Source: Actibacterium lipolyticum (lineage in GTDB: Bacteria > Pseudomonadota > Alphaproteobacteria > Rhodobacterales > Rhodobacteraceae). Taken from it: a DNA stretch of 64,000 nt. The stretch lies in NCBI RefSeq assembly GCF_900184935.1, contig NZ_FXYE01000001.1, positions 496,001-560,000 of the forward strand, read 5' to 3'. The notes under the pieces were generated by a model that was not told the origin of the DNA, did no database searches, and worked only from the letters and a program-made list of their open reading frames with translations. Of this stretch, positions 33,734 to 40,341 are shown one piece after another. Position numbers and translations under genes: made by a program. Every line of letters starts with the position of its first letter. Position 1 is the first letter of the stretch.

Positions 33734-35065
33734 TTACGCCTGTGCTTTTGCCGCCTCTGCAAAGCGATGCGCCTGCTGCGGGGCGTCGCCCATTTGTGCG
33801 GCAGGGCTGCACAGCACGGCCCAATCGGTGCCCGGCCATTCACGATTGGCAAGTTGGGCCAGCGGCGTCTGGCTTTCCTGCGCTTCTTTGCACAGGGCCT
33901 TTACGGCGGCTTGCGCATCAGGGCGAGGCATCTGCGCGGCCAGCGCAAAGCTAAGCGCCTCGGCGTAGGTCAGGCCAAGGCCGTCGTCGATGCCTGCCTC
34001 CATACGGTCCGCAACGGGCGTGATGGTGGTTGCAAGGCTTTCGGCCACGTCCAAGGCGCGGGCAAGGGCCATCGTGATCTGCGGCAGGCTCATCCATTCG
34101 ACCAGCCATGTCGCACCGTCGCGCTGTTGGCGGTGTTGGGCGGCGGTTTGCATGTTGGCGTTCAGCCCAACCATTTGACGGGCCAGTGCCACCATCACGC
34201 CGGGGCCAACCGGGTTCTGTTTTTGCGGCATGGTGGATGAACCGCCACCTTGGCCCAACCGGATCTCACCAATCCCGGTTTGCGACATTAGCAACAGATC
34301 TTCGCCCATTTTGGCAAGCGATCCAGCCACTGCTGTCATCCACGCGGAAAGCTCGGCAACCGTGTCGCGGGTGGAATGCCAGCTTTCGCCGGGGTCGCCC
34401 AGACCAAGCGCTGCTGCAAGATCGGCCCGAACGGCCGCGCCTTTATCGCCCATCGCAGACAAAGTGCCCGACGCGCCTGCAAGGCTAACGTTCAAGAGGC
34501 GTGGGCGCAGTTCGGCCAGTCGCTCGCGATGACGTAACAAGGGCTGCCCCCAGCTGGCCACAACCGCACCGAACGAGGTGGGCGTTGCAACCTGCCCCCA
34601 AGTGCGCGCCGCCATCGGCAGATCGGCGTGCGTTTCAGCCAACGTGCCAAGCCGGGCCAGAATGCGAACCAACCGTTCGTCCATCAATGTCAGCGCCTGA
34701 CGCAGCCGCAGGATCAGGCCAGTGTCGATGATGTCCTGACTGGTGGCGCCCCAGTGGGCGTATTGCGCGTGCTCTGGGGCTTCCATCGCTTTGCGAAAGG
34801 CTTTGACCAAGGCGGGGATGCACACCGCGCTTTCGCCCGTTTCAGCGGCAAGGCCGGTCGGGTCGATCTGTATTTCAAGCGTGGCGCGATGAATGAAGGC
34901 GGCGCTTTCTTCGGGGATCACGCCCAGCTTGCCTTGCACCTTGGCCAGCGCCCCTTCGACCAGCAGCATGGCGCGAACTTCGGCGCTGTCGGTGAAAAGT
35001 TTGCCGATTTCGGCGTCATGGAACAGGTCGCGGTAGAGGCCGCTGTCAAAAGGGGAAACGGCCAT
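33734..35065 (-). CDS. pcaB: 3-carboxy-cis,cis-muconate cycloisomerase
   Basis: PcaB converts 3-carboxy-cis,cis-muconate to gamma-carboxymuconolactone in the protocatechuate branch of the beta-ketoadipate pathway. This 443-residue protein belongs to the fumarase/aspartase superfamily. It carries the GGGSSTMPQKQNP signature (near residue 267), the upstream HWGATSQDIIDTG region (near 104), and no frameshift. It lies 1 nt after the BKACE gene in the same operon. The length is typical of PcaB. Confidence 0.92.
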   Translation of the reverse strand: MAVSPFDSGLYRDLFHDAEIGKLFTDSAEVRAMLLVEGALAKVQGKLGVIPEESAAFIHRATLEIQIDPTGLAAETGESAVCIPALVKAFRKAMEAPEHAQYAHWGATSQDIIDTGLILRLRQALTLMDERLVRILARLGTLAETHADLPMAARTWGQVATPTSFGAVVASWGQPLLRHRERLAELRPRLLNVSLAGASGTLSAMGDKGAAVRADLAAALGLGDPGESWHSTRDTVAELSAWMTAVAGSLAKMGEDLLLMSQTGIGEIRLGQGGGSSTMPQKQNPVGPGVMVALARQMVGLNANMQTAAQHRQQRDGATWLVEWMSLPQITMALARALDVAESLATTITPVADRMEAGIDDGLGLTYAEALSFALAAQMPRPDAQAAVKALCKEAQESQTPLAQLANREWPGTDWAVLCSPAAQMGDAPQQAHRFAEAAKAQA

Positions 35066-35066
35066 C

Positions 35067-35897
35067 TTATACTGCTTTCAAACCAAGAATGTCGCGGGCT
35101 TGTACCCATGTTGCGACGGGGCGTTCGTATTTTTCGCACAGCTCAACGGCACGTTTGACCAGCGCCGCATTCGATGGGGCCAGCGTTTCGCGGTTAAGGC
35201 GCATGTTATCTTCTAGCCCGGTGCGGGTATGCCCGCCCGCAGCAATAGACCATTCGTTCAAAACGATCTGGTTCGGGCCGACACCGGCACCGCACCACTG
35301 CGCATCGGGCGCAAGGCGGTTCAGGGTTTTGACGTAGAAATCGAACACCTCTTTATCCACGGGCATCGCGTTTTTCACGCCCATGACGAACTGAACATAC
35401 AGCGGCTTTTTCAGGCGCCCATCTTCCGACAGCTTCACGGCCTGAAAGATGTGGGACAGGTCGAATGCCTCGATCTCGGGCTTGACGTCGTATTTCAGCA
35501 TCTCGCTGGCCAGCCAGTCCACCAAATCGGGGGAGTTTTCATAGACCCGCGTCGGAAAGTTGTTCGATCCAACCGAAAGCGATGCCATATCGGGCGCAAG
35601 GGAAAGCATCCCGCCACGTTCGTGGCCCGCGCCGGAACGCCCGCCGGTGGAAAGCTGGACAATCATGCCGGGGCAATGCTTTTCGATGCCTTCTTTCAGA
35701 CGCGCAAACTTTTCGGGGTCTGAACTGGGCGTTTCATCGTCGTTGCGCACGTGGCAATGCGCGATAGAGGCGCCGGCCTCGAATGCCTCGTGCGTGCTTT
35801 CGATCTGCTCTTCCACCGTGATCGGCACGGCGGGGTTGTTTTCCTTGCGGGGGACAGAGCCGGTGATGGCAACGCAGATGATGCAGGGGTTGGTCAT
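35067..35897 (-). CDS. BKACE family (3-keto-5-aminohexanoate cleavage-like) enzyme
   Basis: This 276-residue TIM-barrel enzyme has the zinc-binding HCHVRND motif near residues 46-52 and the family start CIICVAITGSVPRKENNPAVP. The family condenses a beta-keto acid with acetyl-CoA to give acetoacetate and a new acyl-CoA. Its place inside the pca operon, with no pcaIJ or pcaF in the window, suggests that the substrate is beta-ketoadipate, giving succinyl-CoA and acetoacetate. That is inference. The ATG at 35897 overlaps the preceding hydrolase stop (ATGA). Confidence 0.88.
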   Translation of the reverse strand: MTNPCIICVAITGSVPRKENNPAVPITVEEQIESTHEAFEAGASIAHCHVRNDDETPSSDPEKFARLKEGIEKHCPGMIVQLSTGGRSGAGHERGGMLSLAPDMASLSVGSNNFPTRVYENSPDLVDWLASEMLKYDVKPEIEAFDLSHIFQAVKLSEDGRLKKPLYVQFVMGVKNAMPVDKEVFDFYVKTLNRLAPDAQWCGAGVGPNQIVLNEWSIAAGGHTRTGLEDNMRLNRETLAPSNAALVKRAVELCEKYERPVATWVQARDILGLKAV

Positions 35898-38379: not shown

Positions 38380-39160
38380 GGCCGATCTCCTTTAGGAATT
38401 TGTTCAACAGCGCGGCGAATTCGCCCGGCTTTTCTGCGCAGGGCAGGTGGCCCGTGCCGCGGATGATTTCGAAATTGGACCCCTTGATCAGGTCCACCGT
38501 TTCGCGCACCAGATCAGGCGGGGTGGCGCCATCTTCGCTGCCCACAATGCCAAGCGTTGGCAGAGTCAGGCCCGATGTGGGCGTATAGAAATCGGTGCCC
38601 GCAATCGCGGCGCAGCAGGCGGTGTAACCTTCCACCGGCTGGCGGATCAGCATATTGCGCCACAGTTCCAACTCGGGCGTGGCGCGGAAGGGTTTGGCGA
38701 ACCAGCGTTCCATGGTGCCGTCTGCGATGCTTTCGATCCCGTCCGCCTTGATCGCGGCGATGCGGTCGTTCCACATTTCAGCCGTGCCGATCTTGGCGGC
38801 GGTATTGGAAAGAACCATCCCGCGAACCTGATCAAGCCGCTTTACAGCCAGCCCCTGCGCGATCATCCCACCGATGGAAAGGCCGACGAAAACGCAATCG
38901 CGCACGTTCAGGTGATCCAGCAGCCGTTCGGTATCGGTTACAAGCTTGCCCATCGAATAGGGGCCGGGTGGGCAGGACGAAAGGCCGTGCCCGCGCTTGT
39001 CGTACCGGATGATCCGCAACCCGGAGGGCAGCAGCGGCAACACGTCGTCCCACAGCCGCAGATCAGTGCCAAGCGAGTTGGAAAAGACAATCGGCGCGCC
39101 CTGCGGGTCGCCATCTTCGCGATAGTGGATCCGGGTATCGCCCAGGTCTGCTATTTTCAT
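38372..39160 (-). CDS. pcaD: 3-oxoadipate enol-lactonase
   Basis: This 262-residue alpha/beta hydrolase has nucleophile Ser95 in GLSIGG and the family start MKIADLGDTRIHYREDGDP. The catalytic His lies in GTGHLPCAEKPGEF near the C-terminus. It hydrolyses 3-oxoadipate enol-lactone to beta-ketoadipate, the last step encoded with certainty here. The ATG at 39160 is chosen over an upstream one, because the extension lies in the gap and the pobA tail. It is 11 nt after pobA. Confidence 0.94.
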   Translation of the reverse strand: MKIADLGDTRIHYREDGDPQGAPIVFSNSLGTDLRLWDDVLPLLPSGLRIIRYDKRGHGLSSCPPGPYSMGKLVTDTERLLDHLNVRDCVFVGLSIGGMIAQGLAVKRLDQVRGMVLSNTAAKIGTAEMWNDRIAAIKADGIESIADGTMERWFAKPFRATPELELWRNMLIRQPVEGYTACCAAIAGTDFYTPTSGLTLPTLGIVGSEDGATPPDLVRETVDLIKGSNFEIIRGTGHLPCAEKPGEFAALLNKFLKEIGHV

Positions 39161-39171
39161 GCTTTTAACCT

Positions 39172-40341
39172 TCAGTAGGGAAGACCGATGTAATTTTCGG
39201 CCAACGCAGTTTGCGCGGCAACCGATGTTTCCAGATATGCCAGTTCGCTTTCCTGCATCCGCTGGCCGAATGCGCCCTGATCGGGGAAGCGGTGCAAAAG
39301 CGATGTCATCGACCAAGAGAACCGTTCGGATTTCCAGACACGGGCCAAGGCGCGTTCTGAATACCGGTCGATGCCTTCTTCGCTTTTGTCCTGATACAGC
39401 TCTGTCAGCGCGTTATACAGGTAATGCACGTCAGACACAGCAAGGTTCAGCCCCTTTGCGCCGGTGGGTGGCACGATATGCGCGGCATCCCCAACAAGGA
39501 ACAACCGGCCCCAGCGCATGGGTTCAGCCACATAGCTGCGCAGCGGCGCGATGGATTTTTCGATGGTATCGCCGGTGATAATCGTATCGGCCGCATCGGC
39601 AGGGATGCGGCGTTTCAGTTCATCCCAGAACGCGTGATCCGACCACTGATCAACCTTATCTTCCAGCGGCACCTGAAGGTAATACCGGCTTAGGTTCGCA
39701 TTGCGCATCGAACACAGGGCAAAACCGCGTTCGTGGTTGGCATAGATCAACTCGTCCGACACAGGCGGTGTTTCGGAAAGAATGCCAAGCCAGCCAAATG
39801 GGTAAACTCGTTCGAATTCCTTCAGAACGTCTTGCGGAATGCAGGTGCGGCTGACCCCGTGGAACCCGTCACACCCAGCGACATAGTCGCAATCGATGCG
39901 ATGTTCGGTGCCGTCCTTGGTGTAGGTCACATAGGGCTTGTCAGTTTTCAGATCATGCGGCTGCGCGCCTTCGGCCCCGTGGATCACCACGCCGTCCAAC
40001 TTTTCGCGCGCCTGATAAAGGTCCGACGTTACCTCTGTCTGGCCGTAAACCATGACAGTCGCGCCAACCCGTTCCTTAAAGTCGATCCGAAATCCACGGT
40101 TGGACGCGGCCAGATAGGTGCCATCGTGCACGAAACCTTCGCGATCCATCCGCGCGCCAACCTGCGCCTCGCGCAGCATTTCAACGGTGCCCCATTCCAG
40201 AACGCCCGCCCGAATACGAGACAGAACATATTCGCGCGAGCGACGCTCTAGCACGACTGTGTCGATCCCCTTTAGGTGCAGCAGTTGCGACAGAAGAAGG
40301 CCCGACGGCCCGCCCCCGATAATACAAACCTGTGTACGCAT
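39172..40341 (-). CDS. pobA: 4-hydroxybenzoate 3-monooxygenase
   Basis: This 389-residue FAD-dependent hydroxylase converts 4-hydroxybenzoate plus NAD(P)H and O2 to protocatechuate. Motifs are GGGPSG (FAD ADP-binding, near residues 9-14), CDGFHG (near 158), and [18 protein letters not shown] (near 283). The ATG at 40341 follows AGGGAGGAATGTC, while a longer open frame lacks support. It is the first gene of the minus-strand pca operon. No adjacent PobR or PcaQ regulator is present in the window. Confidence 0.95.

Follow-up and report, generated by a model that had tools for sequence, protein, structure and literature searches.

The pca operon and its BKACE

The subject of this work is an operon of Actibacterium lipolyticum (Rhodobacteraceae) in which genes of the protocatechuate branch of the beta-ketoadipate pathway stand together with a gene for a BKACE, a member of the DUF849 family. 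It lies in a stretch of 64,000 nucleotides, here called the window, that covers positions 496001-560000 of contig C2 in a genome of 3.88 Mb and 11 contigs. Eight genes on the minus strand, from 40341 to 33734, make up the unit in the order pobA-pcaD-pcaC-pcaH-pcaG-hydrolase-BKACE-pcaB. From pobA to pcaB the intergenic spacing is 11, -8, -4, 3, 15, -4, and 1 nt, so the order and the tightness given in the original prediction (overlaps or gaps of 15 nt or less) are as described.

NCBIfam models name seven of the eight genes, six above the curated cut-off and PcaB slightly below it. The unit opens with pobA (39172-40341), which encodes a 4-hydroxybenzoate 3-monooxygenase of 389 amino acids (TIGR02360, 686 bits against a cut-off of 538.7). 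It is followed by pcaD (38372-39160), for a 3-oxoadipate enol-lactonase of 262 amino acids when read from the ATG at 39160 (TIGR02427, 324.9 vs 255.85 bits, a score computed on 38372-39166 and hence on a reading two codons longer), and by pcaC (37999-38379), for a 4-carboxymuconolactone decarboxylase (TIGR02425, 191.7 vs 155.7 bits). Then come pcaH (37262-38002; TIGR02422, 372.3 vs 296.4 bits) and pcaG (36632-37258), the latter for the alpha subunit of protocatechuate 3,4-dioxygenase (TIGR02423, 254.4 vs 126.25 bits). Behind the hydrolase gene stand the BKACE gene (35067-35897), whose product of 276 amino acids is predicted to be a 3-oxoadipate:acetyl-CoA acetyltransferase, and pcaB (33734-35065), for which TIGR02426 is the best match with 337.8 bits, under its cut-off of 355.75. 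Profile searches found neither a CoA-transferase (PF01144) nor a thiolase in the operon or in the 64-kb window, and the cluster is indeed devoid of both, as had been noticed at first reading. The PF01144 search found no CoA-transferase anywhere on C2, and the thiolase matches on this contig all fall outside the window.

What kind of BKACE is this? The PF05853 (DUF849) domain is present at full length (profile positions 1-274 of 274; 307.1 bits, cut-off 24.8). The protein also passes, again at full length, the cut-off of the equivalog NF053568, named "3-oxoadipate:acetyl-CoA acetyltransferase" (509.9 vs 350 bits), and no difference from this family is visible in its sequence. Its nearest solved relatives are 3fa5, 3chv, and 3no5. 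To Kce (2y7d) it is related over the full length, with the active-site motifs conserved, but it remains below the cut-off of the Kce equivalog (251.2 vs 382 bits). Residues H47, H49, S83, R225, E229, and D230 align to Kce and are invariant in all of the 80 relatives whose loci served as the comparison set for motifs and neighbourhoods. As in Kce, the HxH motif and the Glu would bind zinc, and the Ser, Arg, and Asp would belong to the active site. Two positions set the operon enzyme apart. The Glu14 of Kce, which according to a passage of PMC10470551 touches the 5-amino group of the Kce substrate, is replaced by Val in 45 of the relatives and by Leu in the other 35. Conversely, Arg87 of the operon BKACE is invariant in 80/80 relatives, is Ala in Kce, and by eye is not Arg in either of the two paralogues of the same genome; it may bind the second carboxylate of the substrate.

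These paralogues share 29 and 31% identity with the operon BKACE, reach 165 and 174 bits on NF053568, and sit in other contexts. One (L099:7209-8141, that is C5:33208-34140 in the genome itself) matches the 3,5-dioxohexanoate:acetyl-CoA family (544 vs 430 bits) and is preceded by what look like genes of an ABC transporter of the branched-chain amino acid type. The other (L100:7830-8741, on C2) is one gene away from a carnitine 3-dehydrogenase (757 vs 592 bits) and probably cleaves 3-dehydrocarnitine.

Judged by sequence, the assignment of the operon BKACE to the beta-ketoadipate (3-oxoadipate) class is well supported, both by the equivalog and by the family distribution described below. This was also the class originally predicted, and its chemistry would turn beta-ketoadipate and acetyl-CoA into succinyl-CoA and acetoacetate.

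PcaIJF and ScoAB elsewhere in the genome

Another question is whether the BKACE stands in place of pcaIJ and pcaF. For the operon, this part of the original prediction holds; for the genome, it does not, and the idea that the genome lacks pcaIJF had to be rejected. The search for pcaIJ and pcaF that had been proposed as a check finds both, which is the sequence half of what was to speak against the replacement. The genes pcaI, pcaJ, and pcaF are open and contiguous on contig C5 (about 97683-100251), where PcaF scores 690 bits against a cut-off of 597, beside a PcaR/PobR-type regulator (332.5 vs 284.75 bits). The same cluster holds benAB, muconate cycloisomerase (490 bits), a divergent intradiol dioxygenase, and gentisate genes. 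The company of pcaIJF is thus benAB and muconate cycloisomerase, not the pca ring-cleavage genes. Because of this layout on C2 and C5, the protocatechuate operon is read as ending in the BKACE and the benzoate/catechol cluster as ending in PcaIJF. PcaIJF probably serves the benzoate/catechol branch and perhaps phenylacetate as well, and it may act as a back-up.

A second CoA-transferase is encoded on contig C10, with subunits at 666927 and 669530 and two other open reading frames between them. The subunits are 41 and 52% identical to the PcaI and PcaJ of the genome. NCBIfam models do not tell ScoAB from PcaIJ, and the pair was named ScoAB because its A subunit is nearest to the solved succinyl-CoA:3-ketoacid CoA-transferase 3cdk (334 bits), on which PcaI reaches only 215 bits.

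A proposed end of the protocatechuate branch

With these elements, a route can be drawn. PobA would convert 4-hydroxybenzoate into protocatechuate, which PcaHG, B, C, and D would carry to beta-ketoadipate. The BKACE, by a zinc-dependent, Claisen-type reaction, would then use acetyl-CoA to give succinyl-CoA and acetoacetate. The ScoAB of C10 would transfer the CoA from succinyl-CoA to acetoacetate, releasing succinate, and an ordinary acetoacetyl-CoA thiolase would split acetoacetyl-CoA with CoA into two acetyl-CoA. The net sum would be beta-ketoadipate + CoA -> succinate + acetyl-CoA, equal to that of PcaIJ plus PcaF, a balance that combines established pathway knowledge with inference. The canonical ending shares the substrate and the net reaction, but it takes three genes and passes through beta-ketoadipyl-CoA; it is missing from the operon and present on C5.

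The balance also bears on the claim that the BKACE is a shortcut replacing two enzymes. This view is misleading: acetoacetate needs activation and thiolysis, so the route needs three enzymes, two of them common to general acetoacetate metabolism, for the same net stoichiometry. Such a route would save dedicated genes but would neither be shorter nor yield more energy.

We consider it quite probable that the operon encodes the whole protocatechuate branch and that this branch ends in a 3-oxoadipate:acetyl-CoA BKACE. Genes, families, linkage, and distribution are read from the sequences, and from them we infer activity, flux, and division of labour.

Distribution in the family

How general is this arrangement? 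The survey drew on 248 genomes from the family, each representing one genus, and its Fisher tests are uncorrected for phylogeny. A genome was counted as having BKACE when its best E-value was below 1e-100 (173 genomes, equal to the tally over the cut-off) and as having pcaF at an E-value up to 1e-170 (159 genomes, 157 of them over the curated cut-off); pcaG is present in 143. Gene places were listed for BKACE in 134/173 genomes and for pcaF in 135/159, and the linkage counts below cover these, as start-to-start distances.

BKACE occurs in 130 of the 143 genomes with pcaG vs 43 of the 105 without it (p 1e-17). At a first pass, the 143 genomes divided into 96 with BKACE and a pcaF match, 34 with BKACE only, 11 with pcaF only, and two with neither. 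The 36 genomes lacking pcaF were then re-examined by scoring their thiolases on the PcaF model. Three genomes (G104, G124, and G243) hold thiolases of 500-555 bits and were left out of the BKACE-only group; in the other 31 of the 34, no thiolase exceeds 417 bits on this model. One of the two genomes with neither gene, G091, proved to hold a fragment of PcaF (528 bits) and also PcaIJ followed by PcaF. Only one genome in 143 (G196, 64% complete) is therefore left without both BKACE and a PcaF-like thiolase.

The linkage points in the same direction. The starts of pcaG and BKACE are less than 2 kb apart in 70 of the 103 genomes with both places listed, and pcaG and pcaF lie within 20 kb of each other in 7/143 (among the pcaF places listed). 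BKACE also stands at most 15 kb from muconate cycloisomerase in 8 of the 18 genomes having that gene (among the places listed), and for this reason BKACE attends both the protocatechuate and the catechol branches, which share beta-ketoadipate.

Why, then, is pcaF so frequent? Among the genomes with pcaG and BKACE, the phenylacetate gene paaA is found in 75/96 with pcaF vs 2/34 without (p 4e-14), and in 42 of the 86 for which pcaF places were listed every listed pcaF is within 12 kb of paaA. Because pcaF tracks paaA in this way, many of the pcaF matches in the family are probably PaaJ of phenylacetate catabolism. The catechol branch was considered as a reason for the retention of pcaF and rejected: the muconate cycloisomerase marker occurs in just 18/248 genomes, and the phenylacetate marker fits better. 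TIGR02439 was also tried as a catechol marker and dropped, as it marks 2/248 genomes, the source genome not among them; the intradiol enzymes of the latter, on C5 and C2, are far under its cut-off.

The near-empty group with neither gene, the paaA association, and the split between ScoAB and PcaIJ described next are the three supports of the family argument. On these grounds, the view that the distribution of BKACE is that of the usual end of the protocatechuate branch is supported.

The CoA-transferases of genomes without pcaF

If acetoacetate is the product of the BKACE, which CoA-transferase accompanies it? In 27 of the 31 BKACE-only genomes, genes for ScoA and ScoB lie within 4 kb of each other. 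Their products are 78-93% (ScoA) and 72-90% (ScoB) identical to the ScoAB of the source genome and merely 41-48% and 47-54% identical to its PcaIJ. Fragments of ScoA or ScoB, cut by the ends of contigs, occur in two genomes (G156 and G163), and no ScoAB was found in two others, one 82% complete and one in 340 contigs. A clear PcaIJ was found in none of the 31. These statements are based on identity for the CoA-transferase genes of the 27 genomes, for the pieces of G156 and G163, and for the long, weakly matching proteins of G008, G163, and G195, which are 27-28% identical to PcaI. Score alone was used to judge the remaining weak matches to PF01144, which lie in long frames (mostly of at least 500 amino acids), and a second ScoB-like match in G158, one of the 27, whose ScoB is truncated by a contig end.

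The contrast set consisted of six of the 11 genomes with pcaG and pcaF and without BKACE (G034, G046, G077, G203, G233, and G234), picked for a listed pcaF away from paaA, a choice that favours finding PcaIJ. In five of them pcaI (68-75% identity), pcaJ (78-86%), and pcaF are contiguous; in the remaining one, G233, the 9.6-kb contig that bears pcaF has no PcaIJ.

Operons that join BKACE and scoAB

Most of the nearest named relatives of the operon BKACE come from Rhodobacteraceae or its genera, and a second group from Halomonas and its kin. In named roseobacters, such as Leisingera sp. ANG59 (L027), Phaeobacter italicus (L064), and Roseobacter sp. MED193 (L068), pcaC-H-G-BKACE stand in a row. 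A cluster of the same kind, 63-85% identical to that of the window, occurs in a record labelled Nocardioides marinus (L036, JAHVJD010000004.1), possibly through contamination or mislabelling.

In four of the 80 relative loci, BKACE is followed after 6-29 nt by the start of scoA. Yoonia vestfoldensis SKA53 (L040) has pobA-pcaD-C-H-G-BKACE-scoA-scoB, and a Rhodobacteraceae metagenome-assembled genome (L066) has pcaC-H-G-BKACE-scoA-scoB-pcaD-pcaB; the others are Roseovarius marisflavi (L077), cut by a contig end, and Bradyrhizobium sp. STM 3809 (L085). In the survey, genome G039 has a pca operon that reads pcaD-C-H-G-BKACE-pcaB-scoA-scoB. Three BKACE-bearing pca operons (L040, L066, and G039) thus contain scoAB, and this joining is what an acetoacetate product predicts. 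G039 has another scoAB outside this operon, and the two copies (C61:112064-113339 and C45:222230-223817) are 99.6 and 100% identical, apparently through a recent duplication into the pca operon.

The hydrolase and the neighbouring genes

The gene between pcaG and BKACE (35894-36616, minus strand) encodes an alpha/beta-hydrolase of the salicylic-acid-binding-protein-2 / hydroxynitrile-lyase superfamily (PF12697, 107.3 bits; PDB 8hfw, 1y7h, and 1xkl), named at the level of the Pfam fold only. It is possibly an ester hydrolase that feeds the pathway. In 16 of the 80 relative loci, the gene immediately before BKACE encodes a homologue of at least 30% identity. The protein diverges fast (33-56% identity, beside BKACEs of 81-88%), yet its position is kept in these loci.

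Downstream of the operon, 83 nt behind pcaB, lies a zinc alcohol dehydrogenase gene (32565-33650, minus strand; PF00107/PF08240), which overlaps by 4 nt a gene for a protein of the mandelate racemase / muconate lactonizing enzyme family (31333-32568, minus strand; PF13378, 215.4 bits). Homologues of the dehydrogenase (65-74% identity) are found downstream of BKACE in 7/80 relative loci and those of the racemase-family protein (70-79%) in 4/80, for example in L018, L022, L024, L032, and L055. Beside the operon on the plus strand, at 26727-31161, there is a row of four genes that, by reading only, look like Gfo/Idh/MocA-type oxidoreductases.

Known systems and other explanations

The chemistry discussed here is not new: it is already named in NCBIfam and has been proposed in print for Methylobacterium, so that the operon is one more case. 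According to PMC8963497 (2022), nearly all of the Methylobacterium strains studied carry a DUF849 gene between pcaG and pcaB, in operons without pcaIJF, and a role of BKACE in the beta-ketoadipate step was raised there with reference to Bastard 2014. These kce operons resemble that of the window in the position of the BKACE between pcaG and pcaB, in the absence of pcaIJF from the operon, and in the proposed reaction. The window's genome differs by having pcaIJF elsewhere, separate pobA, pcaD, and pcaC, and an extra hydrolase before the BKACE. Passages of PMC12379598 (2025) report that pcaHGBL plus kce, moved to M. extorquens PA1, allow growth on protocatechuate, slower than that of the donor. 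For Ralstonia eutropha H16, PMC6449761 suggested the same role in a catechol operon, and PMC4922564 names beta-ketoadipate as one of the substrates of the Bastard groups. As for the family-wide pattern and the BKACE-scoAB operons, no paper was found in the open literature searched, outside of which most subscription papers fall; these are what is new here.

The explanations that compete with a BKACE ending do not exclude one another or the BKACE. One of them is that the PcaIJF of C5, switched on by its PcaR/PobR-type regulator as beta-ketoadipate accumulates, ends both branches, leaving to the BKACE a minor or overflow role. The intact genes beside a regulator speak for it, and the BKACE may be redundant in A. 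lipolyticum. The survey adds several observations that weigh against a BKACE ending: the 96 of 143 genomes that carry both BKACE and a pcaF match; the 2x2 test of BKACE vs pcaF within the pcaG-bearing genomes, which is not significant (p 0.52); and the 44 of 86 genomes in which a listed pcaF lies away from paaA, 17 of them with neither the paaA nor the muconate cycloisomerase marker. On the same side are the 26 of 80 relative loci, some with short flanks, that have no pca gene near BKACE, and the absence of pcaG and pcaH from the stretch examined around the BKACE of L077 and L085. To these are added the scoA of L040 (L040:10834-11525), whose frame changes near 11166 in the record by sequencing error or decay, and a second CoA-transferase pair in G066, one of the 27 genomes above, that is ambiguous (55/55% identical to PcaIJ, 45/50% to ScoAB). 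Furthermore, the passages of PMC12379598 contain no kce-loss test for the M. extorquens transfer. Even so, pcaF tracks the phenylacetate genes across the family, often with every listed copy close to paaA, and in the source genome pcaIJF is grouped with the benzoate and catechol genes; we regard the canonical ending of both branches as unlikely. Could the BKACE instead act on another beta-keto acid, for instance one that the operon hydrolase releases, or a ketoadipate with a methyl group or other substituent? Some BKACE families do cleave other acids, as the two paralogues suggest, and the loci without pca genes would suit this idea. It is nevertheless very improbable, given the match to the 3-oxoadipate equivalog, the linkage to pca genes and to muconate cycloisomerase, with beta-ketoadipate common to both branches, and the single genome with pcaG that has neither BKACE nor a PcaF-like thiolase.

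The last explanation comes from the roseobacter Roseovarius nubinhibens, whose 4-hydroxybenzoate route, like that of the window, runs via pobA and pca genes. In PMC12442348 (2025), the authors propose a "pathway crosstalk" without BKACE: a CoA-transferase forms beta-ketoadipyl-CoA, and beta-oxidation thiolases stand in for PcaF at its thiolysis; the BKACE would then be incidental. Their pcaF is uninduced and dispensable, and so is one acyltransferase of beta-oxidation, which is induced and whose loss along with pcaF lowers the final density. Loss of the CoA-transferase subunit called pcaI abolishes growth on 4-hydroxybenzoate, although the mutant still consumes some substrate. The annotated acetyl-CoA C-acetyltransferases are unchanged or lower in the wild type, which is unexpected under an acetoacetate route and is partly at odds with a BKACE ending. 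The dispensable pcaF and the essential CoA-transferase, in turn, fit, in what is a re-reading, the sequence BKACE, ScoAB, and thiolase, which explains them likewise. The main text of PMC12442348 is silent on BKACE, DUF849, and acetoacetate. The CoA-transferase of relatives without pcaF is ScoAB-like, not PcaIJ-like, and scoAB is found inside three BKACE-bearing pca operons. As an account that leaves the BKACE incidental, crosstalk has in our view a very small chance of being correct.

Implications for the family

For the source genome, the claim that a BKACE has replaced pcaIJ and pcaF fails; for many of its relatives it is well supported. The wider family pattern, together with its partial fit with the 2025 Roseovarius genetics, matters more than the operon itself. 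We lean, somewhat more than evenly, to the view that in Rhodobacteraceae, marine roseobacters included, protocatechuate as a rule bypasses beta-ketoadipyl-CoA by means of BKACE, ScoAB, and an ordinary thiolase. Many genes called "pcaF" would then be PaaJ, the "pcaIJ" of R. nubinhibens would be ScoAB, and its "pathway crosstalk" would be the acetoacetate arm. Some of the thiolase expression data from Roseovarius are not in line with this reading and lower our confidence in it.

An annotation of the beta-ketoadipate pathway that looks for pcaIJ and pcaF alone can mistake ScoAB and PaaJ for them. If it is true that BKACE is the usual terminal enzyme in the family, this would explain both the missing pcaIJ and pcaF genes and the puzzling results of the knockouts.

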